From Antedon mediterranea (Eukaryota > Echinodermata > Crinoidea > Comatulida > Antedonidae), in NCBI RefSeq assembly GCF_964355755.1, contig NC_092678.1:2813922-2877921 (forward strand): DNA of 64,000 nucleotides, in the 5' to 3' direction. A program made the position numbers and the translations under genes. The notes below the pieces were generated by a model. That model did not search any database. It was given only the letters and a program-made list of their open reading frames with translations, and was not told where the DNA came from. Below, in pieces: positions 28,341 to 53,366 of the stretch. Position 1 is the stretch's first letter. Each line of letters starts with the position of its first letter.

Positions 28341-28859
28341 GTCGATAGAAAACACCCATCATATTGTCTCCTTAACTTTATTGCTTTTTAATATACATAT
28401 TTCTAACGTTGCCAATCTATTATTTTAATGAAAATTCAATTTTTTAGAGAGACTCCTGCAATTGGTTCTGTTCTTCGTGAATGATCTTTACATACTGTGT
28501 TTGTTTTGTTTTGTTGATTACTAGACAGCCAATCAAAACGTCTTATCAGCAATCAATTAGTGACACCCTAGGTTTCTATTTATACATATTTTGATAATTA
28601 AAATCATATTATTTGACAGTTCATTAATTTTAAACAACACAAATAGATAATTTTAGGCATTAAATTACGTGTTTATAGGAATCTAGGATTGAATTATATT
28701 ATCAATATTTTTTACAACAAAAAAACGTTAAGGCATAATTTTAGTAAGTTAGGTAGGCTTGTGCGACGTAATCAGTATGGCGGATCTGAGTTTCAGAAAC
28801 TAAACATTAAAGTTCCAAGTTAAAAGTCTGTTTTAAGTCTTTCTGCTAAGTTTTTCGAT
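28341..28859. promoter_or_regulatory. Divergent CERK/TBC1D22 promoter region
   Basis: 519 bp separate the two start codons, which point away from each other. No TATA box is obvious at a sensible distance for either gene. A motif GTATGGCGGATC at 28775-28786 resembles the YY1 core (ATGGCGG) often found just downstream of TSSs in divergent TATA-less promoters. Both transcripts are inferred to start within this interval. Confidence 0.6.
28777..28803 (+). other. Upstream ORF ahead of TBC1D22
   Basis: An ATG at 28777 opens an 8-codon frame (MADLSFRN) ending at TAA 28801-28803, 56 nt before the main start. It would be in the leader only if transcription starts upstream of 28777. A translational effect is inferred. 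Confidence 0.3.
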
Positions 28860-31084
28860 ATGGCAAATTCAGAAAAAAGAACAACTACAATAGGTGGAGG
28901 GTTTGGCAGTACAAGTGCACCGAAAAAGGGGACGTATTGGAAGAAAGGAGCTGATAAAGTTCCAGGAAGGTAAGCCCACCCCCACCCCCTAACAGAAGAT
29001 TTTTTCGAAGGGATCGAGAGGCCTTATACCCCGATAAAGCTCAGCGGTTGACCGCCATGACGTCCTTAGGCCTAGCTTAGAAAATTTATTTCCCTCAATA
29101 AGTAATTCAAATGAATACAAATGAATAAATATATTTTCATGGCTGTGTGTAGGCCTACAGTAGGCCGAATTAAGATAAGTGTCAACTTTCGTTACTGTTT
29201 GTTTTGATGAAATAAATTAAAATTAAATAATTTTAGACCCTACCTAAAAAATAAAAGCTGTGGCTAAATAAAGATACGGTACTGTATCCTAACTTCCGTT
29301 AGGTACAGCAGGTAGGGTAAAATTGCATTGCGTCATAATCAGCCAATGGGTTGCTGGGACGTATAAGGACTTTGGATTTTTTTTCTTATTGCGTCTGTAG
29401 AGAATGCCTATCGGCAGCGCCAGGCTGCATGAATGTGTGCTCTGATTCTGTGACTCAGCCCCGGCACTAGACCTAGCAAAGTTTAACAACGGGTGACAAC
29501 GTCGATGCTGTATTAATAGAGCAAGTTTATGTGGTTGATGGACGTTACATAAAGCATTTAAAACATGCACTCAATCTCAAATATTATTCCATTACACAAC
29601 ATACAGTAGTAGTAGTATTATAGTCCGATATCTTGATACAGTAGCCAAATTAAAAGTAAAGGAATTATAATTCAATGTTGGAAATGAGATTTTGATTCCA
29701 AATGAAGTATTTAGGCCTATAATTGTTATTAATTTTGTTTACAGACACATAAACAACAAGCAAATGCGGACAATATAGGGGCCCTCAAATATTATGATTT
29801 AGACAGTAGTCCCAGGGCTTAGTCACAGACACATGCAGCTGGCCCCAGCCTGGTACTGCTTTCCCTACACAAACAAACTCATATAATGAGGCTATAGGTT
29901 ATAGTACGTAGTAGGCCTCTTTTGAAACGGTTTTGTGTATTCTAGAATTAAAATCAACTTGTTTTGGCTTTTTAATAATAACAGACGTAGGCTACATTTA
30001 GTTTTTGTCACACACGACGGTGATAGTAGCAATAAATGAAGCATAAAGAAATTTTAAGCGGTTGATCACTGTTTTCGCAATATGAAAACAAATCCAAAGT
30101 CCTTGCACAATGACGTTACACATGTACCACGTCCCCACTGGATGATTATGACGTAATGCAATTTTACCGTACCTTTAGCAAACGGAAGTTAAGATACGGT
30201 ACCGTATCTTTAGCCATGGCGAAAAGTAAACAGATTAATCAGTACTACTACTAGGCTAGTCAAGGCATAACTTTACTAGTAAGGCAGGGTAGCTATGAGA
30301 GGAGAATTCCCTTTCCGTTGGGGGAAACATCAAAAAAATTATGACAGCAGATGGTTGTACAATGTCTTAAATATTGTAAATTTGGTTGTGTGTACAGTAA
30401 GCCTTTTTGTTATATTTTAATGCAGAAAACAAGACACATAAATAAAAATTCAGTTTCTTTGTAATCCGGGAGAAAAAGCTTGTTAGGCCGGGAGACGAGT
30501 TTAGAATACACGGGTGTCCCGGCCAAAACAGGAGTGTTGGCGTCTATATAAATTAAATATATTTGCATGGAAAGGTCAAGACAGCTGTTTTAAATTGGGA
30601 TTTAAATACAGAATTTCTGTGCTGCTTATAAAATTAGTACTGCTAGGAGAAGTAAACAATAAGTTGTACTCTTATAGAATAATGTTATGAGTTTATTTAA
30701 CCCCTGAAAAAAAAAATGTAAAAGATAATTTTTTGTAAAACGTTGACCAATTTGATGCAATTATTTTCCTCAATATTTTTGTAATGCTAACATTTTAATT
30801 AATTTAAGTACATTTCACAGAAAGATTTAATGCATACAACAAAATGCTTATATACACAGTTTTGATTGCTTTTTAAGATTCAGAAATCCCATGCAAACGC
30901 TATACTACTGTCATTGTTTGTCATCTCGCAAAGATAAAACTTCTTTTTAAAATTGTGTAGCCCATATAGCTCTTTAATAATTTGAAAGCTTTTCCGTGCA
31001 CTGCTGTAATGTTTTAATATTCTGATGTACTGTAAATAGTAGAAATACTACAATTACATTATAGAAAGTAGGAAGTATTATGTT

Positions 31085-31118
<34 letters not shown>

Positions 31119-34100
31119 TGTCTACCATAGATATTTGATTGTGTTTTAATGTTTCATACTTCCTCATTGTTTTACAGAGTATGTATATTTTTCCATTTTG
31201 TACCATACAGTATAAGAAAAATATCTAGTTTGTATAATGCCATCCCAATTAGTTTAACCCAGTGGAACTATTCTAGCCTCATGTATGTTTTAGATTTTTC
31301 CAATTATGCCATAGTTTTTAATATTAACATTTTTACTTTGTTTAACTTGTTTATTTCATTATTGAAACTATTATTTTTTTATGTTCAGTGCATTTCATTT
31401 GGATGGGAGTGAAGTGTACGTTGGATTTATGAATTTGCTTTACTTTTTAATTGAATTTAAGAATATTTAATTTGGATTTATATTTTTTAATTTGACTTTG
31501 ACATTTAATTTTGAACAGGGTTGGTTTATAATTTCCTTTTTTGGAATTCTTCTAACCATAATGCACTGTTCTAAATCTACATTTGCCCTATGCTACAGTT
31601 ACCTGGTTCGAATGCATAGCAATACAGTAGTATAGTGCATGTTTCGCATGAATACACAAAAAATCTTATCAAGTTTAAAAGAAGTAGTAAAAGTTATATT
31701 AGTACATTACTGTTGTTACTTTAGTACCCTCCATGAATGTATAGCATTAACCTATATATTAGTACATTACTGTTGTTACTTTAGTACCCTCCATGAATGT
31801 ATAGCATTAACCTATCGTTATTATTTACTTAATATGCTAATTGCACTTTCACACTATATTGGTAACAACTTTTACTAAAAATGAACAACTATATTTTATT
31901 TATATAGACTGGGAAGTTAAATTCCTATTTGTTAGTAGGTAATGAAGTGTAAACAAAATAACACATTATGTAAAGTGTATCATGAGAGGTGATACTGCAT
32001 GATTTACGGAAAACAGGTCTTTTTATGTTCATTAAACTTCATTTAACTAATATTTCAAATGTTTGGTGCTTTCCAAATTTTGTTTTTTATAACAAAAAAA
32101 GTAATATTACCGTAATAACCAGAGAAGTTATTGTATTAAACTAATATTGTTTAACAAAAAATTCTTTAAAATTGCATATTAGCTATTATATCTTTACACA
32201 TTTTTTTTTCTAATTTTTAAAACATTGTTAATGAATACTGTTGTGTATTAATAATGTAGTAGCAAGTGATTAATTATTTGCTGTACTGTAGAAGTTATAA
32301 AGTATGATATGACAATAGTTATTATTACAGTAGTATAATATAGCAGGAAAAATAAACATCTTTTCACTCACCCCCCCCTCCCCCTCACTCTTTCACCCCC
32401 CTACCCCCTTACTCTTTCACCCCTTTCCCCTTTCTCAAACCCCTTTCTAAAAAATATATAAACATGTATGTAGTATAGTTAAAATACTAAATAGTTTTTG
32501 GTATTTACAGTTCAAACCATTTTTGTTATTGATTTTTTTTATATTTGATGTATTGGTTGCCTTATTTTAATATGCAAATTGTCTCTTATATCTCATTGGA
32601 AAGCACTTAAACTTCCCAAAAGCAATGCCATTATAATCCTCAACTATAGTAAATCGGTCACAATCATCAAGATATAATTGAACCATTGAGACCAATAGTC
32701 TATGCATGAACCAGTCAAGCATTACATGTTCTAACAGTGATAAATTCTATGTTGTTAGCATGCGTCCAGTGTACAGTGCGAAGTACGGCACCGAAGAGAT
32801 AGCAGCTCAGACTCGGTTACGGGATCATACGGCAACAAAAGGCAACAAAAAGAAGAAAGATACGTTTGCGGATTTCGATTATAGAATGAATGATGCGTGG
32901 GACGTTGACGAGGAAGAGTTGAACGCTATGGCTCTAAGTAAATTGCAGGAACGAGAACAATTAGCAATTCAGCAAGAGCTTAATGAAAGTGTTCATGATA
33001 CTGGGCAAAATGATGCAAAAGTTAAAGGTCAGGATTCATTATAGATTACTAATTACACTAATTTTGTCCATACCTACAGTACTTTTTATATTTTTTTGTT
33101 GTAATTTAAAATTAAGAAAAGACTCGTTCTACCTTCAGAACCATGGAGTGAGTGAGCCTCAAATTGTCAATGTTATGGCTACGTATAGTTCCACTGTCTT
33201 AACCGCTCGGTCACCCACTCTTTTATCTTACCACCAACTTCAGTTTTCTAATAATAAATTCTTTTTTCACCGCCATCAGATCCTTCAGTAAGTTCAGAAA
33301 TACCAACAGATGTAGCAATAATAAATGAACCCAGACCAACAAGTCCTATCAGGATGTCGTCGGAACCAGTAGCAGACGTCGAGTTGTCAAGGCAACATAA
33401 GTTTGGTCTATTATTATCAGGTCCAAACACAGATTTAGGTTGGTAATATTTACAGAAATAAATAACATTTTTATTGGTTTAATATTACAATGTTACCATC
33501 TTTTGGTTGAGATGTTGGGCTGTACATGGGCTGCTGCACGGCCTTTTGGGCTGTCCATGGGCTGCTCTACGGCCTTTTGGGCTATTCATGGGCTGCTCTA
33601 CAGCCGGTTGGGCTGTTCATGGGCTGCTCTAATGGCTTTTGGGCTATTCATGGGCTGCTGCATGGCTTTTTGGGCTATTCATGGGCTGCTCAATGGCCTA
33701 TTGGTCCGTTCATGGGCCGCTGAATGGCCTTTTGGGCTATTCATGAGCTGCTGCACGGCCTTCTTGGCTATTCATGGGCTGCTCAATGGCCTATTGGTCC
33801 GTTCATGGGCTGCTGCATGGCCTGTCGGGTCGTTCATGTGCTACTGCAAGGCCAAAAAGTCAATGTGGTAGTGTCACCCTTTTAAATTTACATAACACAC
33901 AAAATAATTTGTACTTCCATTAATTTTAACAAATCTAAAATGCCCCAACAAATTACCTATTGCTATTAGCTACTATTACTTTGTGAATATATGATAATAT
34001 TAAATTACCATAGTAAATTCATGCAGCAGTATTTAATACAATAATCTAAATTTATTATAAAAAATTCTCCAAAGAGACATCAATCATTATAATAGCTGTA

Positions 34101-37100
34101 AAATATTATAATCTGAACCATTGTAGAGTTTAACCAATCACTGACGTTGAGCACTTCACTTAAAATGATTACTAATATTGAGCATTGGGAATAGATTGCC
34201 ATAGCTTTACTTTTCTAATTCCATTTTAATTCAATCTAAAGACTGAAATTCAAAAATAATCCAGATTGAAATGCTATTCTTGAAGCCAATTTTGTAATTA
34301 TTTTAGGTGGAGATGAACACCGTTTTAACCTAACCAGTCAGCCAAACATTTAATAAAATCTTGCATGTGTATCGAACTCTTCTTTCCAACGATATTAATA
34401 GATAAAATTTTTTGTTTTATTTATTTTTATGAGAATTGATGCGGTTTTTAGATGCTTTTTATCTGTAAATATGTTATCACTGATAATAAAATTACTAATA
34501 AAATACCTACCCAACAGAAATAGAGATTCTTGATAGTACTAACATTTGACACTCGCTCCCTAGACTTATCTAACTACACCCTTGTATATCCTATATCATT
34601 AGTTGGTATAATTACACTATCAAAATGTGAGAAAAAAATGTGATGTGCCCATATATGAACATGATGATGTCATATCACTACTATTTAGGAATATCACAAC
34701 TATATTTGGGCACATCCTACTATTTTTTGTCAAACTAGTTTGATAGTGTAGACAGGACTTAAAGAATACGTTTTATCTCTCCTGTAATGTTGCACTGTTG
34801 ATTGTGTGTCCTCACATGATCACCAAATAATAAGGTAATTGTCACATTAAATTTTTCACTTGGAAAGCTAACAAATTTTATATATTTTTTATTATTTCAG
34901 AGGAATTAAGAAAACTCAGCTGGAAAGGAATACCAACGCATGTGAGACCAATGACTTGGAAAATTTTACTTGTAAATATAATTTCTTTGCATACAATAAA
35001 AATGATGATACAGTCAACTCTCCTAAAAAACGGGAAAATCTCCCAAAAATTTATTAAAAATATATTTGAAATACCAGAATTTTTTGAAACCAGACATATT
35101 AGGTGTCCAGTATTGGGAGAGTTGACTAGAAACCAACTAGATCACTAAAATATTGTAAGAACAATCCAAAAAGATAAAAAGGAAAATTATTGAGTATAAA
35201 CAAACATCTGTAAAATTTGCTATTATTAAGTATTCTTAAACTCTGTCTACACTATCAAACTTTATGTGACAAAAAATGTGATGTGTCCATATATGGACAT
35301 GACGATGTCATATCACTACCATATTTGAGCACATCACTACCATATTTGGGCACATCACACTTTTTTTGTCAAAATAATTTGATAGTGTAGACAGAGCTTA
35401 ACAAACAGTATGTCAAAGTTTGTCTGATTCCTTTGGGATTTGGTAATCTCATTTCCAGATGACGTTGATGTTACATTGTCTGCTTGTTTTTAAAATATTG
35501 GTATTCAAACTTTTGAATTTATGAGGCATGTATTGTAAGAGGAGATGTACTGTATTAGAAAAGGGCAATTAGTACATACATGTATCCTCAATTTACTCAT
35601 TAAAATCATCACTAACAAATAACAATTTATATTTGCATAAAGTTTCTTAAGACCTTTTAAAGAGAATTAAAATATTACACTTGTAGGGATATAGTTTAAG
35701 AATTAGTTGGGTGGGCGTCATCAATTTAAGTAGTTTTTTGGATGGGTGGTATCATAAAATAACCTCTAGGCTGGGGAAATAATTTTTCCCCATCATAATT
35801 TCATCCTTCATTTATTAGTTTTTTTTCTTCTAATTGTTCTTTACTTCTTTAGGGATACCTACCAGCAAATATCGATAGACGAGATATTACTTTAGACAGA
35901 AAACGAGAAGAATATTTTAATTTTATCGAGCAGTACTATCACACAAAAACAGAACCTCACAATGAAGAAATGTTTCGACAGGTAATTACAGTAAGATGCA
36001 AATTATCATTTTAGTATCGGTTCCTCTTGTTGAATGTATTTTTAATTTATTAAATATTAATAAATAAAGTTTATTTATTTTAAAAAAAGGGCACTTTAAG
36101 GAAGTGCGAACCTCCGCCTAGGCATATGAATATTAAGTGACGTACATACAGCTATAAAACCATCTTTTTAAATCTTATGAAAATCGGGCAAAAACTTTTT
36201 GATCCATTTGATTGATTTGTAATCCTGCTAACAAAAACACACTCGACTACATAACCTCTCGTCATTCTGGCGGAGGTAATTAAAAAGTAGCAAGATTAAA
36301 GATGTATTGTCCCCCTGAAAAAATAAATTTTTAGAATTTGTTTGTTGAATATGCCATTTTAATGTCACATAATAGTTATTCACTTTGACAAAAAATTGGA
36401 TCGAAAAAAAAAAAATTACTTACCTGAAAAAACTGTAATTTAGAGCAAAAAATAGTCAAATTGGCTGCCAGCCAATGGGTTTTGATTGAATTTAACTGTT
36501 TATTTTGTCATTTTATAAGTGAAAACATTATTTTTTCGGGATTTTTTTCTACGGAAGTAATTAACTTGGTTAAAATTACAAAATGGCATATTCGAGGTTT
36601 GATTTTAATAATCTTCATTTTTCATGTTTTTGGGGGACAATACATCTTTAAACAATATTTATTATGATTGTTTTTATAATACAGTAGAACCCCTATTTAA
36701 AGGATCATCGTTGGGTCCCAACAAAGTGTTCTCCAAAAAGGAGTGTCCTCTTAAAAGGAGTGTCCTCTTAAAAGGAGTGTCCTCTTAAAAGGAGTGTCCT
36801 ATGAATAGGGAAGCATGTCCTAAAGGAATTTTACTGTTTAAATTCACTTTTTCACTAAATCATTTTTATCTTGTAGTATACTTCTCGCTGAAACAAAGTT
36901 AAATGTAAATGTTAGGCTTAGACAAATACAAATATGTTGTTTGATTATTTTTCTAAATTATTTGTGATGTTGGCCTCCGTGCAGATACACATTGATATTC
37001 CAAGGACCAATCCCCTCATTCCCTTGTTCCAGCAAGAGTTAGTTCAGCAGGTAAGTGTCTGGATAGAGTCTATCATCACAGGGTTGATTAAACTGTTTCT

Positions 37101-40100
37101 CCACGACTAAGCTGCTATTTTAAATGCTGAATATAAGTATTTTTATTTAGCTTACCTAAATTTTGCAATGATTTTTTTTATACCAATAAAATATTTGTAT
37201 ATATTTTGCACAAAAAATCTAAATTTTATATTTTTAAAATGTGCTTTCTTTTTCAATGTTACTTTTTCATTCTTTACTTTCTAAACTTTTTATTCTTTCT
37301 TGCTTCTTAGTAAATTACCTTTAGGATCCATTCTCCTTGGTATGTTTTCAAAATACTGTAATTTTGTAATTTTAACCAACTTTTAATAACTACATAACCT
37401 TTTCTCATTTTTCACAGACTTAAGTCAACATTTCTTTTGTAAAATATTAAATTATAAATCTGCCCTCAAATTTCAGATATCTAAGCCTTCATGCCAAATA
37501 ATCCTTGGACTTAAATGTGACCAGGTTTCATGTTTTCATTCATTCATTCAATCTTTTATTTTTAAATCTCTGGTCCATAGAAAATAAAATTGCATATCAA
37601 ATTTTTTTTTTAATCAACTGTACCGACTAATTACTACAAGACGACGCATTCTCATCTCAGGATGGCATTCTACCTGAAGGGAATTTTTAACTTTAAGATG
37701 TCTATAATCAGTGAGATTAAAACATTTTCTCTGTCTACATACACACCAGGCATTATATTGATTTTCATAAAAAGAAGGAATTCTACATTCTGTATATTAC
37801 AGTATTTTCAATTTTGGTTAATTTTATAAAAAACCTGTAAACTTCCACCTATTATTGCAGTATAATGCCCTAAAGTGTCAGTTTTTCATTTCTTTTTTAT
37901 ATTTCTTATTTCTATTAATTTTTTTTTGCTTAGATGTTGTACAGTATTTTATAAAATGTCTTTACTTTAGCAATTTTGTCGTGGAGATATGGTAAATCTA
38001 TACCCTAGATTTTTCAAATATATTATATATTCTACAAATAGAGCATTTTCTTTTATTTTTGTTTGGTGGCGCTGTTTTCACAGATTCAGAAAGATATACC
38101 CCGAATGCCGCATCCGCTGTTACGTGAAGTAATTGTTCAAGAGGTAATTTATCCGTCCTGTTGTGGTACCGTCTATGAGAAGGAGGAGAAAGGGTTGCTT
38201 AGCATCCATCTTCAAATCAATTCATATCTGTTAAAATCATTTTTGTAATAATATTTTGTTGAGTTTATTTTTTGTTTGTAATTTAGTCCCTCCTATTGTA
38301 AAAACAATTAATATAGACATAATAAGAAATTGCTAAATTTATTATTACAGTAAACAATATTGCCAAAATAAGCCAAAAACAAAAAGGAATAAATTTGTAA
38401 AGTAAATAGCTATTAAAAAATAAATAAAAATAAAATTGGTAAAATAAATTCCCACAAACTTATTTCTTTATATCTAGTTTCAAAATAGTTGATATTTTTC
38501 TATATCCAAATTAATTTTACTAAATTGATATAAGATATTTAATATGGAAAAAAGTTATTGATAAAAGAAAGCTAAATTGATGGACTTAGATTGTCGTGCT
38601 CGTAATATTGTCTGTGACTGTTGTCATTTATGCTCCATCATCTTATCATCACTACATTTTGTGTTAATTTTCTTTCATTATTTACCACACACATTTTTAT
38701 GAATTCACATTGTTACTGCCCTTAATTAACCCTTACTCCTCCTTATCCTACACAGGAGCCTAAATGTACCCCACTTTGCATGCATGCTTGCTTTTTATAT
38801 ATATTTTTGGTGTTTTTTTTTGTTTCACTAAATTTGTTATGTTATGTTTGTGTTTTAACAAAAAAAAAACACAATTAACCTGAAATATTGGACACAAAGA
38901 TGCAGAATGTGGTAAAGTTTACGACAGCAAATTTTTGTTCAAATTTGTGGTTGAGGGTTCTGTTTACATCATCTTTTATTACATTTCTTAGTTCTTCATT
39001 TTTAGGTTATTCTTAATTCATATTATTTTGTATACATGATATGACACTTTAGTATCTTGGTTAAATATAATATGTTACACTCTCGCAATTAAAGTTCATA
39101 AAATGTACTACAGTCAACTCTCCCAATACTGGATTCTCGAAAAACCAGAGACTCCCAAAACCAGACCCTCTTCCAAAACCAGACTTTTCTTGAGTTCCAA
39201 CAGTTCCTAAATTTTTTTTAACCATAAAACCAGACATATTAGACCAGCCCAATGGTGTATTGGGAAAGTTAACTATGACTATACGTACACTGTTGAGAAT
39301 GTTTTTCCTGTTTCAATTATTTGTGAATACAACTTTAAACTGTTACAAATATTATTTCAATACTTTTCTTAGATATTTGAAAGGATATTATACATTTGGG
39401 CAATCCGTCATCCAGCAAGTGGTTACGTCCAAGGAATCAATGATCTAGTCACACCATTTTTTGTAGTGTTTTTATCTGAATATTTAGGTAAGTAATTTCC
39501 ATAAAAGTCCCTTTGTGCCGAGCTCAACCAAACAGCAAACTACTACTAAATGTTCACGTTCTTGATGCTCTTGCTTTCGCCAACAAATCACAGTCCTCTA
39601 CTAAATGTTGACGTTCTTGATGCTCTTGTTTTCGCCAACAAATCACAGTCCTCTACTAAATGTTGACGTTCTTGATGCTCTTGTTTTCGTCAACAAATCA
39701 CAGTCCTCTACTAAATGTTCACGTTCTTGATGCTCTTGTTTTCACCAACAAATCACAGTCCTCTACTAAATGTTCACGTTCTTGATGCTCTTGTTTTCAC
39801 CAACAAATCGCAGTCCTCTACTAAATGTTCACGTTCTTGATGCTCTTGTTTTCACCAACAAATCACAGTCCTCTACTAAATGTTCACGTTCTTGATGCTC
39901 TTGTTTTCACCAACAAATCGCAGTCCTCTACTAAATGTTCACGTTCTTGATGCTCTTGTTTTCACCAACAAATCGCAGTCCTCTACTAAATGTTCACGTT
40001 CTTGATGCTCTTGTTTTCGCCAACAAATCGCAGTCCTCTACTAAATGTTCACGTTCTTGATGCTCTTGTTTTCGCCAACAAATCACAGTCCTCTACTAAA

Positions 40101-43100
40101 TGTTCACGTTCTTGATGCTCTTGTTTTCGCCAACAAATCACAGTCCTCTACTAAATGTTCACGTTCTTCATGCTCTTGTTTTCGCCAACAAATCGCAGTC
40201 CTCTACTAAATGTTCACGTTCTTGATGCTCTTGTTTTCGCCAACAAATCACAGTCCTCTACTAAATGTTCACGTTCTTGATGCTCTTGTTTTCACCAACA
40301 AATCGCAGTCCTCTACTAAATGTTCACGTTCTTGATACTCTTGTTTTCGCCAACAAATCACAGTCCTCTACTAAATGTTCACGTTCTTGATGCTCTTGTT
40401 TTCGCCAACAAATCACAGTCCTCTACTAAATGTTCACGTTCTTGATACTCTTGTTTTCGCCAACAAATCACAGTCCTCTACTAAATGTTCACGTTCTTGA
40501 TGCTCTTGTTTTCACCAACAAATCACAGTCCTCTACTAAATGTTCACGTTCTTGATGCTCTTGTTTTCACCAACAAATCACAGTCCTCTACTAAATGTTC
40601 ACGTTCTTGATGCTCTTGTTTTCGTCAACAAATCACAGTCCTCTACTAAATGTTCACGTTCTTGATACTCTTGTTTTCGCCAACAAATCACAGTCCTCTA
40701 CTAAATGTTCACGTTCTTGATGCTCTTGTTTTCACCAACAAATCACAGTCCTCTACTAAATGTTCACGTTCTTGATGCTCTTGTTTTCGCCAACAAATCA
40801 CAGTCCTCTACTAAATGTTCACGTTCTTCATGCTCTTGTTTTCGCCAACAAATCGCAGTCCTCTACTAAATGTTCACGTTCTTGATACTCTTGCTTTCGC
40901 CAACAAATCACAGTCCTCTACTAAATGTTCACGTTCTTGATGCTCTTGTTTTCACCAACAAATCGCAGTGCTCCACTAAATGTTCACGTTCTTGATGCTC
41001 TTGTTTTCACCAACAAATCGCAGTCCTCTACTAAATGTTCACGTTCTTGATGCTCTTGCTTTCGCCAACAAATCACAGTCCTCTACTAAATGTTCACGTT
41101 TTTGATGCTCTTGTTTTCACCAACAAATCGCAGTCCTCTACTAAATGTTCATGTTCTTGATGCTCTTGTTTTCACCAACAAATCACAGTCCTCTACTAAA
41201 TGTTCACGTTCTTGATGCTCTTGTTTTTGCCAACAAATCACAGTCCTCTATTAAATGTTCACGTTCTTGATGCTCTTGTTTTCGCCAACAAATCACAGTC
41301 CTCTACTAAATGTTCATGTTCTTGATGCTCTTGTTTTCACCAACAAATCGCAGTCCTCTACTAAATGTTGACGTTCTTGATGCTCTTGTTTTCACCAACA
41401 AATCACAGTCCTCTACTAAATGTTAACGTTCTTCATGCTCTTGTTTTCACCAACAAATCGCAGTCCTCTACTAAATGTTCACGTTCTTGATGCTCTTGTT
41501 TTCGCCAACAAATCACAGTCCTCTATTAAATGTTCACGTTCTTGATGCTCTTGTTTTCACCAACAAATCGCAGTCCTCTACTAAATGTTCATGTTCTTGA
41601 TACTCTTGTTTTCACCAACAAATCGCAGTCCTCTACTAAATGTTCACGTTCTTGATGCTCTTGTTTTCACCAACAAATCACAGTCCTCTACTAAATGTTC
41701 ACGTTCTTGATGCTCTTGTTTTCACCAACAAATCACAGTCCTCTACTAAATGTTGACGTTCTTGATGCTCTTGTTTTCACCAACAAATCACAGTCCTCTA
41801 CTAAATGTTCATGTTCTTGATACTCTTGTTTTCACCAACAAATCACAGTCCTCTACTAAATGTTCACGTTCTTGATGCTCTTGTTTTCACCAACAAATCG
41901 CAGTCCTCTACTAAATGTTCATGTTCTTGATGCTCTTGTTTTCGCCAACAAATCACAGTCCTCTACTAAATGTTCATGTTCTTGATGCTCTTCTTTTCAC
42001 CAACAAATCACAGTCCTCTACTAAATGTTCATGTTCTTGATGCTCTTGTTTTCGCCAACAAATCACAGTCCTCTACTAAATGTTCACATTCTTGATGCTC
42101 TTGTTTTCACCAACAAATCACAGTCCTCTACTAAATGTTCACGTTCTTGATGCTCTTGTTTTTGCCAACAAATCACAGTCCTCTATTAAATGTTCACGTT
42201 CTTGATGCTCTTGTTTTCGCCAACAAATCACAGTCCTCTACTAAATGTTCATGTTCTTGATGCTCTTGTTTTCACCAACAAATCGCAGTCCTCTACTAAA
42301 TGTTGACGTTCTTGATGCTCTTGTTTTCACCAACAAATCGCAGTCCTCTACTAAATGTTCACGTTCTTGATGCTCTTGTTTTCGCCAACAAATCACAGTC
42401 CTCTACTAAATGTTCATGTTCTTGATGCTCTTCTTTTCACCAACAAATCACAGTCCTCTATTAAATGTTCACGTTCTTGATGCTCTTGTTTTCGCCAACA
42501 AATCACAGTCCTCTACTAAATGTTCATGTTCTTGATGCTCTTGTTTTCGTCAACAAATCGCAGTTCTCTACTAAAGGTTCACGTTGTTGATGCTCTTGTT
42601 TTCGCCAGTAAAACGCAGTCCTCTACTAAATGTTCATGTTCTTCATGCTCTTGTTTTCACCAACAAATCGCAGTTCTCTACTAAATGTTCACATTCTTGA
42701 TGCTCTTCTTTTCGCCAACAAATCGCAGTCCTCTACTAAATGTTCATGTTCTTGATGCTTTTGTTTTCACCAACAAATCGCAGTTCTCTACTAAATGTTC
42801 ACATTCTTGATGCTCTTCTTTTCGCCAACAAATCGCAGTCCTCTACTAAATGTTCATGTTCTTGATGCTCTTGTTTTCACCAACAAATCGCAGTCCTCTA
42901 CTAAATGTTCATGTTCTTGATGCTCTTGTTTTCACCAACAAATCGCAGTTCTCTACTAAATGTTCACATTCTTGATGCTCTTCTTTTCGCCAACAAATCG
43001 CAGTCCTCTACTAAATGTTCATGTTCTTGATGCTCTTGCTTTCGCCAAAAAATCGCAGTCCTCTACTAAATGTTCACGTTCTCGATGCTCTTGTTTTCAC

Positions 43101-46100
43101 CAACAAATCGCAGTTCTCTACTAAATGTTCACGTTCTTGATGCTCTTGTTTTCACCAACAAATCGCAGTCCTCTACTAAATGTTCACGTTCTTCATGCTC
43201 TTGTTTTCACCAACAAATCACAGTCCTCTACTAAATGTTCATGTTCTTGATGCTCTTGTTTTCACCAACAAATCACAGTTCTCTACTAAATGTTCATGTT
43301 CTTGATAATCTTGCTTTCGCCAACAAATCGCAGTCCTCTACTAAATGTTCATGTTCTTGATGCTCTTGTTTTCGCCAACAAATCACAGTTCTCTACTAAA
43401 TGTTCATGTTCTTGATGCTCTTGTTTTCACCAACAAATCACAGTCCTCTACTAAATGTTCATGTTCTTGATGCTCTTGTTTTCACCAACAAATCACAGTT
43501 CTCTACTAAATGTTCATGTTCTTGATAATCTTGCTTTCGCCAACAAATCGCAGTCCTCTACTAAATGTTCATGTTCTTGATGCTCTTGTTTTCACCAACA
43601 AATCACAGTCCTCTATTAAATGTTCATGTTCTTGATGCTCTTGTTTTCGCCAACAAATCGCAGTCCTCTACTAAATGTTCACGTTCTTGATGCTCTTGTT
43701 TTCGCCAGTAAATCGCAGTTCTCTACTAAATGTTCACGTTCTTGATGCTCTTGTTTTCGCCAGTAAATCGCAGTCCTCTACTAAATGTTAACGTTCTTCA
43801 TGCTCTTGTTTTCACCAACAAATCGCAGTCCTCTACTAAATGTTCACGTTCTTGATGCTCTTGTTTTCACCAACAAATCACAGTCCTCTACTAAATGTTC
43901 ACGTTCTTGATGCTCTTGTTTTCACCTACAAATCGCAGTCCTCTACTAAATGTTCATGTTCTTGATGCTCTTGTTTTCACCAACAAATCACAGTCCTCTA
44001 CTAAATGTTCACGTTCTTGATGCTCTTGTTTTCGCCAACAAATCACAGTCCTCTACTAAATGTTCACGTTCTTGATGCTCTTGTTTTCACCAACAAATCG
44101 CAGTCCTCTACTAAATGTTCACGTTCTTGATGCTCTTGTTTTCACCAACAAATCGCAGTTCCCTACTAAATGTTCACGTTCTTGATGCTCTTGTTTTCGC
44201 CAGTAAATCGCAGTCCTCTACTAAATGTTCATGTTCTTCATTCTCTTGTTTTCACCAACAAATCGCAGTCCTCTACTAAATGTTCACGTTCTTGATGCTC
44301 TTGTTTTCACCAACAAATCGCAGTCCTCTACTAAATGTTCATGTTCTTGATGCTCTTGTTTTCGTCAACAAATCGCAGTTCTCTACTAAATGTTCACGTT
44401 CTTGATGCTCTTGTTTTCGCCAGTAAAACGCAGTCCTCTACTAAATGTTCATGTTCTTCATGCTCTTGTTTTCACCAACAAATCGCAGTTCTCTACTAAA
44501 TGTTCACATTCTTGATGCTCTTCTTTTCGCCAACAAATCGCAGTCCTCTACTAAATGTTCATGTTCTTGATGCTCTTGTTTTCACCAACAAATCACAGTC
44601 CTCTACTAAATGTTCATGTTCTTGATGCTCTTGTTTTCACCAACAAATCACAGTCCTCTACTAAATGTTCACGTTCTTGATGCTCTTGTTTTCACCAACA
44701 AATCACAGTCCTCTACTAAATGTTCACGTTCTTGATGCTCTTGTTTTCACCAACAAATCACAGTCCTCTACTAAATGTTCATGTTCTTGATGCTCTTGTT
44801 TTCACCAACAAATCACAGTCCTCTACTAAATGTTCACGTTCTTGATGCTCTTGTTTTCACCAACAAATCACAGTCCTCTACTAAATGTTCATGTTCTTGA
44901 TGCTCTTGTTTTCACCAACAAATCACAGTCCTCTACTAAATGTTCACGTTCTTGATGCTCTTGTTTTCGTCAACAAATCACAGTCCTCTACTAAATGTTG
45001 ACGTTCTTGATGCTCTTGTTTTCACCAACAAATCACAGTCCTCTACTAAATGTTCACGTTCTTGATGCTCTTCTTTTCACCAACAAATCACAGTCCTCTA
45101 CTAAATGTTCACGTTCTTGATGCTCTTCTTTTCACCAACAAATCACAGTCCTCTACTAAATGTTGACGTTCTTGATGCTCTTGTTTTCACCAACAAATCA
45201 CAGTCCTCTACTAAATGTTCACGTTCTTGATGCTCTTGTTTTCACCAACAAATCACAGTCCTCTACTAAATGTTCATGTTCTTGATGCTCTTGTTTTCAC
45301 CAACAAATCACAGTCCTCTACTAAATGTTCACGTTCTTGATGCTCTTGTTTTCGTCAACAAATCACAGTTCTCTACTAAATGTTCATGTTCTTCATGCTC
45401 TTGTTTTCACCAACAAATCGCAGTCCTCTACTAAATGTTCATGTTCTTCATGCTCTTGTTTTCACCAACAAATCGCAGTCCTCTACTAAATGTTCACGTT
45501 CTTGATGCTCTTGTTTTCACCAACAAATCGCAGTCCTCTACTAAATGTTCATGTTCTTCATGCTCTTGTTTTCACCAACAAATCGCAGTTCTCTACTAAA
45601 TGTTCACGTTCTTGATGCTCTTGTTTTCGTCAACAAATCGCAGTTCTCTACTAAATGTTCACGTTGTTGATGCTCTTGTTTTCGTCAACAAATCGCAGTT
45701 CTCTACTAAATGTTCATGTTCTTGATGCTCTTGTTTTCACCAACAAATCGCAGTCCTCTACTAAATGTTCACGTTCTTGATGCTCTTGTTTTCACCAACA
45801 AATCGCAGTCCTCTACTAAATGTTCACGTTCTTGATGCTCTTCTTTTCGCCAACAAATCACAGTCCTCTACTAAATGTTCATGTTCTTGATGCTCTTGTT
45901 TTCACCAACAAATCGCAGTTCTCTACTAAATGTTCATGTTCTTGATGCTCTTGTTTTCGCCAACAAATCGCAGTCCTCTACTAAATGTTCACGTTCTTGA
46001 TGCTCTTCTTTTCGCCAACAAATCACAGTCCTCTACTAAATGTTCATGTTCTTGATGCTCTTGTTTTCACCAACAAATCGCAGTTCTCTACTAAATGTTC

Positions 46101-49100
46101 ACGTTGTTGATGCTCTTGTTTTCGCCAGTAAATCGTAGTCCTCTACTAAATGTTAACGTTCTTCATGCTCTTGTTTTCACCAACAAATCGCAGCCCTCTA
46201 CTAAATGTTCACGTTCTTGATGCTCTTGTTTTCGTCAACAAATCGCAGTCCTCTACTAAATGTTCATGTTCTTGATGCTCTTGTTTTCGTCAACAAATCG
46301 CAGTTCTCTACTAAATGTTCACGTTCTTGATGCTCTTGTTTTCGCCAGTAAAACGCAGTCCTCTACTAAATGTTCATGTTCTTCATGCTCTTGTTTTCAC
46401 CAACAAATCGCAGTTCTCTACTAAATGTTCATGTTCTTGATGCTCTTGTTTTCGTCAACAAATCGCAGTTCTCTACTAAATGTTCACGTTCTTGATGCTC
46501 TTGTTTTCGCCAGTAAAACGCAGTCCTCTACTAAATGTTCATGTTCTTCATGCTCTTGTTTTCACCAACAAATCGCAGTTCTCTACTAAATGTTCACATT
46601 CTTGATGCTCTTCTTTTCGCCAACAAATCGCAGTCCTCTACTAAATGTTCATGTTCTTGATGCTCTTGTTTTCACCAACAAATCGCAGTTCTCTACTAAA
46701 TGTTCATGTTCTTGATGCTCTTGTTTTCGCCAACAAATCGCAGTTCTCTACTAAATGTTCACATTCTTGATGCTCTTCTTTTCGCCAACAAATCGCAGTC
46801 CTCTACTAAATGTTCACGTTCTTGATGCTCTTGTTTTCACCAACAAATCGCAGTTCTCTACTAAATGTTCATGTTCTTCATGCTCTTGTTTTCACCAACA
46901 AATCGCAGTTCTCTACTAAATGTTCACATTCTTGATGCTCTTCTTTTCGCCAACAAATCGCAGTCCTCTACTAAATGTTCATGTTCTTCATTCTCTTGTT
47001 TTCACCAACAAATCACAGTCCTCTACTAAATGTTCACGTTCTTCATTCTCTTGTTTTCACCAACAAATCACAGTTCTCTACTAAATGTTCACGTTCTTCA
47101 TGCTCTTGTTTTCGCCAACAAATCGCAGTCCTCTACTAAATGTTCACGTTCTTGATGCTCTTGTTTTCGCCAACAAATCACAGTCCTCTACTAAATGTTG
47201 ATGTTCTTGATGCTCTTCTTTTCGCCAACAAATCACAGTCCTCTACTAAATGTTCACGTTCTTGATGCTCTTGTTTTCACCAACAAATCACAGTCCTCTA
47301 CTAAATGTTCACGTTCTTGATGCTCTTGTTTTCACCAACAAATCACAGTCCTCTACTAAATGTTCACGTTCTTGATGCTCTTGTTTTCACCAACAAATCA
47401 CAGTCCTCTATTAAATGTTCACGTTCTTGATGCTCTTGTTTTTGTCAACAAATCACAGTCCTCTACTAAATGTTCATGTTCTTGATGCTCTTGTTTTCAC
47501 CAACAAATCACAGTCCTCTACTAAATGTTCACGTTCTTGATGCTCTTCTTTTCACCAACAAATCACAGTCCTCTACTAAATGTTCACGTTCTTGATGCTC
47601 TTGTTTTCGCCAACAAATCACAGTCCTCTACTAAATGTTGATGTTCTTGATGCTCTTGTTTTCACCAACAAATCACAGTCCTCTACTAAATGTTCACGTT
47701 CTTGATGCTCTTCTTTTCGCCAACAAATCGCAGTCCTCTACTAAATGTTCATGTTCTTGATGCTCTTGTTTTCACCAACAAATCACAGTCCTCTACTAAA
47801 TGTTCACGTTCTTGATGCTCTTCTTTTCACCAACAAATCACAGTCCTCTACTAAATGTTCACGTTCTTGATGCTCTTGTTTTCACCAACAAATCACAGTC
47901 CTCTACTAAATGTTCACGTTCTTGATGCTCTTGTTTTCACCAACAAATCGCAGTCCTCTACTAAATGTTCATGTTCTTGATGCTCTTCTTTTCGCCAACA
48001 AATCACAGTCCTCTACTAAATGTTCACGTTCTTGATGCTCTTGTTTTCACCAACAAATCACAGTCCTCTACTAAATGTTCACGTTCTTGATGCTCTTGTT
48101 TTCACCAACAAATCACAGTCCTCTACTAAATGTTCATGTTCTTGATGCTCTTGTTTTCACCAACAAATCACAGTCCTCTACTAAATGTTCACGTTCTTGA
48201 TGCTCTTCTTTTCGCCAACAAATCGCAGTCCTCTACTAAATGTTCATGTTCTTGATGCTCTTGTTTTCACCAACAAATCACAGTCCTCTACTAAATGTTC
48301 ACGTTCTTGATGCTCTTCTTTTCACCAACAAATCACAGTCCTCTACTAAATGTTCACGTTCTTGATGCTCTTGTTTTCACCAACAAATCACAGTCCTCTA
48401 CTAAATGTTCACGTTCTTGATGCTCTTGTTTTCACCAACAAATCGCAGTCCTCTACTAAATGTTCATGTTCTTGATGCTCTTGTTTTCGCCAACAAATCA
48501 CAGTCCTCTACTAAATGTTCATGTTCTTGATGCTCTTGTTTTCACCAACAAATCACAGTCCTCTACTAAATGTTCACGTTCTTGATGCTCTTCTTTTCAC
48601 CAACAAATCACAGTCCTCTACTAAATGTTCACATTCTTGATACTCTTGCTTTCGTCAACAAATCGCAATCTACTAAATGTTCACCAACAAAACCATCTTG
48701 TGTGAGCTTCATTCTAATTTGTATAATTTTTTTCAGGTGATAATGTAAAGCGGGTTGAAGATTACGACGTAAAGCAACTTAACGGTGACAAACTTAGAGT
48801 AATAGAAGCTGACACATTTTGGTGTATGAGCAAACTACTTGATGGCATTCAAGACAACTACACATTTGCTCAACCTGGCATTCAAACCAAAGTGAAACAG
48901 CTGGAGGAGTTAATTAAAAGAATAAATGGTAATTATACTGTGTATGAGTGTTTGCAGTACTTGTACTCTTAATTGGAGTGTGAGTGTTTGCAGTAGCTGT
49001 ACTCCTAATTGGCGTGTGGGTGTTTGCAGTAGCTGTACTCATGCTTGGCGTGTGGGTGTTTGTAGTAGCTGTATACTCCTAATTGGTGTGTGAGTGTTGG

Positions 49101-52100: not shown

Positions 52101-53366
52101 TGGTTTGGTATTTTATTTTTCAGTTCACTTACAAAAACACCTTGAGCAGAATTTAGTGGAATACTTGCAGTTTTCCTATCGTTGGATGAACAATCTGCTT
52201 ATGAGGGAGTTACCACTTCATTGTACGATACGTGTTTGGGATACATATATGGTAAGGAATATTCTGCATCATCAGTCGTATGGTTCACTTACACTAAAAG
52301 TATTATAATTCCTTAATGAATACTTGTAGGTGAAACATGTTCATGTATAGTGTGAATTAATAAAGCAGTTTAGGCTTGGTTTACTTCCTGGCAGCCTATT
52401 GTCTAGTGATGACCAATCACCTTTGACTTCGCTCACTTTTTACTAAATTTACTTATTCCATAAAAATGTTGAAGAGTACAATTGAAATGTTTAAAAACAA
52501 GGCCATATACATGGCTGCAGTCACATGCATGCTCAAATTTGTGACAGTGAGCTGTAGAGTCTACCACTAATTCCTTTCTGTGTAAACTGTAAACCAAGAT
52601 CATACTTGCGACTAAATAAAAGATTTTTATTTCAATTTTATTTTATTTTTTTTAGAGTGAACCGGATGGCTTTGCGGAGTTCCATTTGTACGTCTGTGCA
52701 GCATTTCTACAAAGATTTTCTAAAGAAATTCAAGATCAAAGAGACTTCCAGGTGAGAACCAGACGTTAGTCCATCTTTATGTTATTGTAAATTGAGAAAG
52801 CAAAGAATACTGTATGAGTCTGATGATACTGCAATTGGTTTTTTTATAGACATTTTTTGTGATATGAGATCCCAGACAATTTTTTTTTTCTTTATGAGTC
52901 TGATGATACTGTATCTACAATTTGTCCTTTATTATAGACATTTTTTGTTATACAAGATCCCAGACAATTTTTCTTTTCCACCAAAAGAAAAAAAAAGATA
53001 AAAAATTTAAATCGGGGACGTACAACAAAAGCAGAGTCTGAAAACATTGTACTATCTTAACAGTAGCAAAAACACAGACACTTATAAATATATCGCATAC
53101 GAATTCCCAATGTGATACTCTATTCAGCTTCTAACTCTATGATGTAGTTGTGTGTCATAGAATTTATCTATAAATTAAAAATTATAATGTAATTGTGTTC
53201 ACCATTTTAATTTGTTTTTCTTTTTTTAAAGGGAATATTACTTCTGCTACAAAATCTACCTACAGCTAAGTGGGGTGAAAACGAAATTGGACTATTACTT
53301 GCCGAAGCCTATAGTTTAAAATATGTATTTTCTGGAGCAAGGAACCATTTAAACCAAAGTAAATGA
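28860..53366 (+). CDS. TBC1D22: TBC1 domain family member 22 (Rab GTPase-activating protein)
   Basis: Stimulates GTP hydrolysis by Rab proteins; the family is linked to the Golgi. Coding exons: 28860-28969, 32759-33027, 33280-33438, 34901-34971, 35853-35981, 36985-37050 (or 38084-38143), 39373-39487, 48737-48928, 52124-52251, 52656-52751, 53232-53366. With exon A the total is 1,470 nt (489 aa); with exon B, 487 aa. The N-terminus has TYWKKGADKVPGSMRPVYSA, as in vertebrate TBC1D22 (WKRSAKLPGS-PVYG, from memory), then a low-complexity linker and LRKLSWKGIPTHVRPMTW opening the TBC domain. The arginine finger is IHIDIPR (Arg253) and the glutamine finger is SGYVQGIND (Gln288). Further landmarks are FWCMSKLLDGIQDNYTFAQP, WMNNLLMRELPLHCTIRVWD, FHLYVCAAFL and LLAEAYSLKYVF. 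It is intact, with no frameshift. The A and B paralogues cannot be told apart here. Confidence 0.95.
29261..30216. mobile_element. 956-bp non-autonomous DNA transposon with TIRs of about 130 bp
   Basis: The left end runs TGGCTAAATAAAGATACGGT, then CTAACTTCCGTTAGGTAC, GTAAAATTGCATTGCGTCAT and AAGGACTTTGGATTTT. The right end is its inverse: AAATCCAAAGTCCTTG, ATGACGTAATGCAATTTTAC, AACGGAAGTTAAGATACGGT and TTTAGCCA. The right terminus contains a perfect 18-bp palindrome AGATACGGTACCGTATCT at 30192-30209. No transposase is encoded. It lies in TBC1D22 intron 1. Confidence 0.8.
31084..31118. repeat. (TAA)n microsatellite
   Basis: About 11 consecutive TAA units in TBC1D22 intron 1. Confidence 0.9.
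31695..31815. repeat. Two-copy 60-bp tandem duplication
   Basis: The block TATATTAGTACATTACTGTT through TGTATAGCATTAACCTAT is repeated with exact 60-bp spacing and no visible differences, so the duplication is recent. Confidence 0.9.
32368..32450. repeat. C-rich homopyrimidine tract
   Basis: About 80 nt almost free of purines, with many runs of four to nine C (CACCCCCCCCTCCCCCTCAC and following). The complementary strand has enough G-runs for a G-quadruplex. It lies about 310 bp upstream of TBC1D22 exon 2. Confidence 0.8.
33512..33855. repeat. 31-bp imperfect minisatellite, about 11 copies
   Basis: GGGCTATTCATGGGCTGCT recurs every 31 bp with substitutions, interspersed with GGCCTTTT or GGCCTATTGGTCC variants. 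GC-rich against an AT-rich background, in TBC1D22 intron 3. The open frames it creates are not genes. Confidence 0.9.
34611..34761. mobile_element. TTAA MITE family copy in TBC1D22 intron 3
   Basis: The left end is decayed (ACACTATCAAAATGTGAG). The interior has ATGTGATGTGCCCATATATG and TATATTTGGGCACATCCTAC. The right end CTAGTTTGATAGTGTAGACA is followed by GGACTTAA. Confidence 0.75.
35011..35127. mobile_element. Pogo/mariner-like MITE, CAGTCAACTCTCC family, copy 1
   Basis: TA then CAGTCAACTCTCC at the left, and GGGAGAGTTGACT at the right as its inverse. No coding capacity. It lies about 40 bp downstream of the TBC1D22 exon ending at 34971. TA insertion and CAG...CTG ends are Tc1/mariner-type features. 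Confidence 0.7.
35240..35397. mobile_element. TTAA MITE family, best complete copy (158 bp)
   Basis: TTAA at 35236-35239 and 35398-35401 flank the element, which starts ACTCTGTCTACACTATCAAA and ends TTTGATAGTGTAGACAGAGC. The interior has two tandem CATATTTGRGCACATCAC blocks. It serves as the family reference in this window. Confidence 0.85.
36093..36284. repeat. Possible decayed repeat bounded by CCTCCGCC/GGCGGAGG
   Basis: GAACCTCCGCC near 36107 and GGCGGAGGTAATT near 36269 form a short inverted pair in TBC1D22 intron 5. Only the ends are suggestive; no coding sequence. Confidence 0.3.
36300..36647. mobile_element. 348-bp MITE with perfect 16-bp TIRs and TTAA duplication
   Basis: It starts AGATGTATTGTCCCCC and ends GGGGGACAATACATCT, with TTAA at 36296-36299 and 36648-36651. 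Similarity of the arms extends further (GAATATGCCATTTT against AAAATGGCATATTC). A piggyBac-type target site; no transposase. Confidence 0.85.
36683..36810. mobile_element. Pogo-like end fragment with internal 17-bp repeats
   Basis: Begins CAGTAGAACCCCTATTTAAA, typical of pogo/Tigger-like termini, followed by about three copies of AAAGGAGTGTCCTCTTA. The far end ATGAATAGGG only partly mirrors the start. Confidence 0.5.
36985..37050 (+). other. TBC1D22: TBC1D22 alternative exon A (arginine finger)
   Basis: 66 nt, phase 0 on both sides, acceptor CCGTGCAG and donor CAG/GTAAGT. It encodes IHIDIPRTNPLIPLFQQELV then QQ, nearly identical to the vertebrate TBC1D22 segment, and includes the catalytic IxxDxxR motif. 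Confidence 0.85.
38084..38143 (+). other. TBC1D22: TBC1D22 alternative exon B (second arginine finger)
   Basis: 60 nt, phase 0 on both sides, acceptor GTTTTCACAG and donor GAG/GTAATT. It encodes IQKDIPRMPHPLLREVIVQE, a diverged paralogue of exon A that keeps IxxDxPR and the terminal V-Q-E seen in vertebrates. It lies 1,033 nt downstream of A and fits the same place in the protein. Including both would also stay in frame but would duplicate the finger. Confidence 0.75.
39111..39274. mobile_element. Pogo/mariner-like MITE, CAGTCAACTCTCC family, copy 2
   Basis: TA then CAGTCAACTCTCCCAATAC at the left, and GTATTGGGAAAGTTAACT at the right. The interior shares AACCAGACATATTAG-like sequence with copy 1. 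It lies just upstream of the TBC1D22 exon 39373-39487. Confidence 0.7.
39541..48690. repeat. 55-bp minisatellite, about 166 copies, filling a TBC1D22 intron
   Basis: Spacing is 55 bp throughout. Each unit contains CTCTACTAAATGTTC, GATGCTCTTGTTTTC, then CCAACAAATCACAG or CCAACAAATCGCAG. Variation is mostly at a few fixed sites (CACG/CATG, TTGTT/TTCTT, GATG/CATG, TCAC/TCGC, CAGTCC/CAGTTC). The array begins about 54 nt after the donor at 39488 and ends about 45 nt before the acceptor at 48736, so it makes up about 99% of a 9,249-nt intron. No protein frame is open through it. Confidence 0.97.
48940..52035. repeat. 36-bp minisatellite, about 85 copies, filling the next TBC1D22 intron
   Basis: Units carry GTGTTTGCAGTAGCTGTACT and CTTAATTGGCGTGTGA with 36-bp spacing. 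One-base deletions (GTGTTGCAG) recur, and there are regional variants: CTTACTTGGCATGTGA dominates the last 400 bp. An atypical unit with TTTTTTTCAAAATTTC lies near 51570. The array starts about 11 nt after the donor at 48929 and ends about 90 nt before the acceptor at 52123. Because 36 is a multiple of three it opens long frames on both strands (up to 372 codons), which have no other coding character. Confidence 0.97.
52812..52977. repeat. Two-copy diverged direct repeat of about 80 bp
   Basis: GTCTGATGATACTG and, further on, ATAGACATTTTTTG and GATCCCAGACAATTTTT each occur twice, in the intron between TBC1D22 exons 52656-52751 and 53232-53366. Confidence 0.8.

Follow-up and report, generated by a model that had tools for sequence, protein, structure and literature searches.

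In the crinoid Antedon mediterranea, the gene TBC1D22 carries a real tandem-duplicated exon pair, here called A and B, whose members are most likely alternatives for the segment holding the arginine finger of the TBC domain. TBC1D22 is an animal gene whose product is a Golgi Rab-switching enzyme. Judged from the DNA, it is probable that the pair arose by an old tandem duplication, that the two exons are used as alternatives, and that the B form is a second GAP, most likely with changed Rab use. The window is the whole stretch of DNA that was analysed, 64,000 nucleotides in length, and the parts of the gene model lie in it as follows.

32760..33027, + strand: first modelled coding stretch, N-terminal region, 5' boundary uncertain
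33280..33438, + strand: exon e2
34901..34971, + strand: exon e3
35853..35981, + strand: constant exon upstream of A and B (GYLPAN...MFRQ), aligned to 6d0s and 2qfz
36985..37050, + strand: exon A, the canonical finger exon, IHIDIPRTNPLIPLFQQELVQQ, 66 nt, 22 codons, phase 0-0
37051..38083, + strand: A-B intron, 1033 nt, with a dispersed repeat at about 37527-37795
38084..38143, + strand: exon B, the divergent paralogous finger exon, IQKDIPRMPHPLLREVIVQE, 60 nt, 20 codons, phase 0-0
39373..39487, + strand: constant exon downstream of A and B, IFERILYIWAIRHPASGYVQ..., with the YxQ glutamine finger
48737..48928, + strand: exon e6
52124..52251, + strand: exon e7
52656..52751, + strand: exon e8
53232..53366, + strand: last coding exon, stop TGA

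The identity of the gene, named as TBC1D22 in an earlier sequence-only reading, is borne out by its nearest solved relatives, which over the whole TBC domain are TBC1D22B and TBC1D22A (6d0s, 427.6 bits, and 2qfz, 398.6 bits, for the B form), followed by Gyp1 at about 246 bits. The Pfam TBC domain, with a cut-off of 25.2 bits, scores 135.5 bits without either exon, 154.1 bits with exon B and 159.4 bits with exon A. The modelled gene is otherwise open through to its stop codon, and another exon is likely upstream of the first modelled stretch. A genome search with the constant part of the domain found five matches at E <= 0.001, all at this locus; TBC1D22 thus appears to be single-copy here, in a search that a very diverged copy could escape. 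No relative of the domain was confirmed in non-eukaryotic viral contigs (7 pattern matches) or genome contigs (23).

Exons A and B share their two flanking constant exons, whose facing junctions (upstream end 35981, downstream start 39373) are both phase 0. The sequence-only reading had placed the two exons 1,033 nt apart, both phase 0-0 and with good splice sites; the coordinates proved exact, and each exon is bounded by AG and GT. Its further claims, that the exons are paralogous, encode the same place in the protein and each keep the arginine finger IxxDxxR, also hold, with IHIDIPR in A and IQKDIPR in B, the motif being as given in the available part of PMC13090580. The stretch after the arginine differs between the two exons as claimed; its length, put at 14-16 residues, is in fact 15 in A and 13 in B. 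The glutamine finger YxQ, whose role in TBC GAPs is described in the same partial text (PMC13090580), is present as GYVQG in the constant exon that follows.

The acceptor of exon B scores 8.8 bits and its donor 7.6 bits, both inside the ranges of the constant exons of the gene (acceptors 5.5-10.2 bits, donors 2.1-12.3 bits). When the region between the constant exons (35982-39372) was filtered at the weaker of A's and B's own scores, a threshold that speaks to uniqueness and not to strength, eight acceptors and three donors passed, and of the spans that these sites delimit, A and B alone were open in phase 0 with a length of 45-150 nt. Against known finger segments exon B scores 38, the 7236 bounded open peptides of the window averaging -10 (s.d. 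7.6), and the only higher scores belong to A itself and to peptides that shorten or extend A in frame.

The two exons are identical at 35 of 60 nucleotides (58%), on which ground a recent segmental copy or an assembly duplicate was rejected as the source of B. Against the genome, exon B and exon A (65 of its 66 bases) each gave a single match, at their own place, so that no other origin for B was found there. The exons have ten residues in common in the pairwise alignment and nine in a MAFFT alignment, the count depending on the alignment, yet only two of the ten are encoded by identical codons. By codon position, identity is 14, 15 and 6 of 20 (Fisher one-sided P = 0.002); at the first two positions none of 399 control spans comes up to the identity of B, and the third-position value of 6/20 compares with a control mean of 0.26. 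In neutral simulations with 50% of sites replaced, ten identical residues and an open frame survived in 5.7% of runs, or in 0.8% if AG and GT had to be kept too; with 70% replaced the first figure fell to 0.08%, and with 90% replaced to none of 100,000 runs. Third positions near the control mean indicate near-complete replacement, which makes the 90% simulation the relevant case. The overall identity of 58%, taken on its own, would leave the 50% case possible. The pair looks like an old duplication in which B was kept as protein-coding.

Exon A is identical to human TBC1D22B at 20 of 22 residues and to yeast Gyp1 at 15 of 22. For exon B the corresponding values are 10/22 (TBC1D22B), 9/21 (TBC1D22A) and 9/22 (Gyp1), and outside the swapped exon this TBC1D22 and Gyp1, whose letters were used without the C-terminal part, agree at 95 of 196 positions. 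Yeast Gyp1 (1fkm, 2g77) belongs to the same TBC subfamily by sequence, and its fingers are R343 and Q378, according to the accessible portion of PMC3676764; unlike the pair found here, the Gyp1 chains have a single A-type segment over the finger stretch. The idea that exon B corresponds to the exon of TBC1D22A, with which it has an R-M pair in common, was not supported, its identity to TBC1D22A being no higher than to TBC1D22B.

That B departs at sites which A has in common with yeast (9/22 against 15/22 for Gyp1) could reflect a loss of function. Exon B might accordingly be a former working alternative exon, now a fading relic that is spliced seldom or not at all in this crinoid. Its divergence where A agrees with both yeast and human TBC1D22B would suit such a history, and the past constraint seen above would show equally in an exon lost recently; against this, the frame of B is open, its D and R are kept, and its splice sites score within the range of the constant exons, and we regard a relic as improbable. 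Slightly less probable still is a B form that is inactive or regulatory, binding a Rab or partners while being inefficient as a GAP, and so tuning the amount of active enzyme. Two residues are lost and a conserved stretch is replaced directly after the finger, as might be expected of such a form, but IxxDxxR and the glutamine motif of the constant exon are both present, and an inactive protein would have no need of the arginine, which is nevertheless preserved, with different codons in the two exons (AGG in A, CGA in B).

Mutually exclusive exons have been recognised by a length within 20 residues of each other, at least 15 residues, the same splice-site type and frame, and a homology score of at least 15% of the self score (PMC3228551, from the text available). 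A and B have 22 and 20 residues, AG/GT boundaries with phase 0-0 in both, and a score of 31/114, or 27% of self. When eight internal exons were tested, a qualifying intronic partner turned up for A alone (1 of 52 open candidates), with none for the other seven (0 of 95). No built-in exclusion device, whether steric spacing, incompatible splice classes or frame loss, is present in the pair: the 1033-nt intron rules out steric exclusion, the introns are GT-AG throughout as printed, and, both exons being multiples of three, double inclusion or double skipping would keep the frame. A frame-based device is found in 60% of human clusters, as far as the available text of PMC5740500 goes, and the A/B pair is without one. 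Such devices are common but not universal in mutually exclusive pairs.

Frequent splicing of A and B together, into one protein with a longer loop, is forbidden neither by frame nor by spacing or splice-site type. However, such a protein would bear two finger motifs in tandem, the best Pfam stretch of the A+B form begins only at profile position 44, and each of the four closest solved relatives among the matches listed has one finger segment; we judge this outcome very unlikely. Since double inclusion adds 20 residues beside the finger and double skipping removes the finger, the use of one exon of the two would be the arrangement that makes sense for the protein. The chance that B is an intronic open stretch that happens to resemble a finger is negligible: it is only 20 residues long, and by itself too short and divergent for phmmer, which found no match to solved structures up to E = 10 where exon A alone does match, but its position, strand and phase are as they should be, and the splice filter, the Pfam gain, the peptide ranking, the exclusive-exon criteria and the codon-position pattern all single it out.

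Complementary stretches that might form RNA stems follow both exons.

37098..37124, + strand: candidate stem arm 48 nt past exon A, complementary to 37961-37987 upstream of B, -30.8 kcal/mol
38171..38201, + strand: candidate stem arm 28 nt past exon B, complementary to 38723-38753, -31.1 kcal/mol

All four arms of these two stems lie clear of the dispersed repeats listed for the introns after A and B, where 40 of 474 and 40 of 435 repeat candidates were scored. Both candidate stems are stronger than the best of 20 shuffles (-29.4 kcal/mol). Other stretches of the window, with repeats not removed, pair at -31.1 or stronger in 7 of 12 cases and at -30.6 or stronger in 8 of 12; because most pair as strongly, the stems are not counted as evidence for exclusive splicing. 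The strongest pairing of the A/B stretch (-34.5, 36280-36319 with 36620-36659) lies wholly upstream of exon A. TGCATG, an RBFOX-type motif, is present as two overlapping + strand copies past exon B (38777-38786); it was rejected as evidence, the window holding 41 copies against 45.3 expected, with no enrichment.

Returning to the duplication with alternative use, we propose that the exon carrying the catalytic arginine of TBC1D22 was duplicated in tandem long ago to give A and B, which would be used alternatively, as a rule one in each transcript. The A transcripts would encode a canonical TBC1D22/Gyp1-type Rab GAP. Those with B would encode a second protein of the same fold, predicted to have GAP activity, with the arginine finger in the swapped exon, the glutamine finger in the constant exon that follows it, and a post-finger loop that is two residues shorter and of different sequence. 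Given that the altered stretch directly follows the arginine reaching into the Rab active site, B would most likely change Rab choice or rate.

The human proteins TBC1D22A and TBC1D22B resemble A and B in offering two post-finger versions of one domain, encoded there by two genes and here by two exons. Their post-finger stretches, identical at 6 of 15 positions, are among their least conserved parts. TBC1D22B is a GAP on RAB1B, and TBC1D22A binds RAB1B negligibly, as stated in the available excerpt of PMC12631847. It is conceivable, though unlikely, that form A, which is TBC1D22B-like, switches off Golgi Rab1, and that form B, altered only in the finger exon and the loop after it, serves another Rab as its GAP. 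Exon choice would then do in one gene the work of the two vertebrate genes, and the post-finger segment would be a portable TBC specificity module, arrived at through a duplicated exon in this crinoid and through a duplicated gene in vertebrates.

A catalytic arginine also sits in the swapped exon of the enzyme KHK, where both forms retain it (PMC9741552, in part). The two cases differ in that KHK works on an ATP-dependent substrate of its own, whereas the arginine of TBC1D22 acts in trans, on a Rab, and is followed by the loop that changes. More generally, A and B resemble the tandem duplicated exon substitution events or mutually exclusive exons of PMC9741552, PMC9013439 and the human survey PMC5740500, in which, in the portions at hand, one protein exchanges adjacent internal exons that are homologous and alike in length and phase. 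The term 'TBC1D' is absent from the main texts of PMC5740500 and PMC9741552, and 'TBC' from that of PMC9013439. The earlier remark that no description of this in TBC1D22 genes was known agrees with the titles and abstract beginnings of the open-licence literature, where none was found. The novelty is that of a new gene for an already known kind of exon pair.

Rab choice by TBC-domain GAPs is hard to predict from sequence. Two GAP-Rab pairs show uncompensated interface differences, according to the excerpt of PMC13090580. If the proposed use of A and B is true, this crinoid would naturally make two enzymes that differ in nothing but 20-22 residues around the arginine finger. These would offer a clean test of whether Rab choice is set by that short segment, and splicing control would act directly on the catalytic finger. 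One gene could in this way make two enzymes with different active-site loops.

The TBC1D22 gene of Antedon mediterranea carries two exons for the catalytic arginine finger (the arginine of IxxDxxR), a canonical one, exon A, and a divergent one, exon B. They lie 1033 nt apart, both between the constant exons that end at 35981 and start at 39373.

32760-53366, + strand: TBC1D22 gene, ten coding stretches, exon B being extra
36985-37050, + strand: exon A, encoding IHIDIPRTNPLIPLFQQELVQQ, phase 0 at both ends
38084-38143, + strand: exon B, encoding IQKDIPRMPHPLLREVIVQE, phase 0 at both ends

The first boundary of the gene is uncertain, with an additional 5' exon likely upstream. The domain assembled with exon B matched human TBC1D22B (6d0s, 427.6 bits) and TBC1D22A (2qfz, 398.6 bits) over the full length, with yeast Gyp1 third at about 246 bits. 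When the constant part of the domain was searched against the genome (354 Mb, 18 contigs), five exon matches were obtained at E <= 0.001 and, given that every one is at this locus, TBC1D22 appears to be single-copy. Genome-wide, 47 TBC-domain matches were found; the longest (600 nt, the second being 375 nt), at G000:C9:5015755-5016354 on the - strand, is within an 846-residue open frame and is perhaps an intronless TBC gene.

Several lines of evidence indicate that exon B is more than a chance resemblance. Using generic splice matrices of our own, exon A scored 7.7 bits at its acceptor and 13.0 at its donor, exon B 8.8 and 7.6, and the remaining exons 5.5-10.2 and 2.1-12.3. When the weaker of the A and B scores set the threshold, A and B were the only open phase-0 spans of 45-150 nt to pass between the constant exons. 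The finger segments of Gyp1 and of the two human proteins TBC1D22A and TBC1D22B served to score all open, AG...GT-bounded peptides of 54-72 nt in the whole window, on both strands and in three phases. The top five of 7236 were A or its in-frame pieces and extensions (nested spans counted separately), and exon B ranked next, at 38 (background mean -10, s.d. 7.6, n=7236). The Pfam TBC score rose from 135.5 bits without either exon to 154.1 with B and 159.4 with A. One result speaks against exon B: by phmmer, its peptide alone found no solved structure at E up to 10, whereas that of exon A alone matches the TBC1D22B and Gyp1 structures. The criteria for mutually exclusive exons (length, frame, splice type and a homology score of at least 15% of self; PMC3228551) were run on the eight internal exons: among 52 open candidates for A only exon B passes, at 27%, and none of 95 passes for the other seven, one of which had no candidate. 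The sequence-only reading, which had proposed duplicated finger exons, was right, and the observation now has more support than that reading could give it.

In the pairwise alignment of A and B, 10 residues are identical, only 2 of them with the same codon (4.0 expected from the codon usage of the gene); even for the finger arginine the codons differ, A using AGG and B using CGA. At codon positions 1, 2 and 3 the two exons agree at 14/20, 15/20 and 6/20 sites (one-sided Fisher test, P = 0.002). Against 399 control spans aligned in the same way, identity at positions 1 and 2 is 0.725 for B, reached by 0/399 (maximum 0.70, mean 0.414), and third-position identity, 0.30, is close to the control mean of 0.258. 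Silent sites look worn out and protein positions preserved, a combination expected of a duplicate that is old and has been kept for the protein it encodes; a recent loss of use would also be compatible with it.

TBC GAPs are described, in passages of two papers, as using a dual-finger mechanism (PMC3676764, PMC13090580). Since the swapped exon itself contains the arginine, and GYVQG, the glutamine motif, belongs to the constant downstream exon, both catalytic fingers are present in either form. What changes is the post-finger stretch, 15 residues after the arginine in A and 13 different ones in B. Exon A shows good conservation, being identical to human TBC1D22B at 20/22 residues (182/253 outside the exon) and to Gyp1 at 15/22 (95/196 outside, counted as far as the Gyp1 sequence used extends); exon B is identical at 10/22 and 9/22, respectively. 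Human TBC1D22A and TBC1D22B share only 6/15 residues of this stretch, whereas they share 198/251 outside the exon. In a scan of 224 fifteen-column windows of the two, the post-finger starts, columns 52 and 53, gave an identity of 0.40, a value also found at column 124; only the window at column 123, a loop with gaps, was lower (0.36). In human cells, according to passages of one study, RAB1B is acted on by TBC1D22B and bound negligibly by TBC1D22A (PMC12631847). This difference, together with the post-finger divergence, makes the stretch a reasonable candidate determinant of Rab preference, although the paralogues differ elsewhere too. In the literature passages searched, nothing states which of the post-finger residues touch the Rab.

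As for how one exon might be chosen, frame, spacing and splice-site type revealed no sequence device enforcing exclusivity. Both lengths are divisible by three, so that double inclusion and double skipping keep the frame; with 1033 nt of intron between the exons, steric exclusion is ruled out; and all splice sites are ordinary GT-AG as printed. In passages on human mutually exclusive clusters, possible steric interference accounts for 9%, splice-class incompatibility for 0.79%, and 60% hold exons of length not divisible by three (PMC5740500), a frame device that the A/B pair, in contrast, does not have. Long-range RNA pairings start 48 nt after A and 28 nt after B, both stronger than 20 shuffles, but pairing equally strong occurs in 7/12 other stretches of the window; an RNA-structure route is a candidate idea. 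At 38723-38786, a candidate stem arm that could pair with sequence immediately downstream of exon B is followed, after about 25 nt, by two overlapping TGCATG motifs. The layout resembles an RNA bridge and has no statistical support.

Two of the features in and around the gene are very long minisatellites that fill TBC1D22 introns.

39543-48684: minisatellite, 55-bp unit, about 166 copies, TBC1D22 intron
48945-51993: minisatellite, 36-bp unit, about 85 copies, TBC1D22 intron
about 37527-37795 and 39095-39277: dispersed repeats, at least 39 and at least 44 other places, 69-97% identity
23318-23542 and 24467-24751, - strand: diacylglycerol kinase catalytic domain (Pfam), 33.2 bits, which exceeds the cut-off, and 20.6 bits, which does not reach it
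57518-57940, + strand: reverse transcriptase RNase H-like domain (Pfam, 58.0 bits), read as a retroelement remnant
59491-59760, - strand: frame with no Pfam match

Further exon-like frames occur on the - strand at about 21000-29000, around the kinase matches. We take the two frames with kinase matches to be ceramide kinase; as CERK also adjoins TBC1D22A in the human genome, CERK and TBC1D22 may be an ancient gene pair.

A pair of this type in TBC1D22 is not described in the open-licence titles and abstract starts searched, and a supplementary table may list it. Judged from sequence, alternative and exclusive use of A and B with a changed choice of Rab is plausible. The two exons fall into the established class of tandem duplicated alternative exons; their site, in the catalytic finger of this Rab GAP, is unusual.
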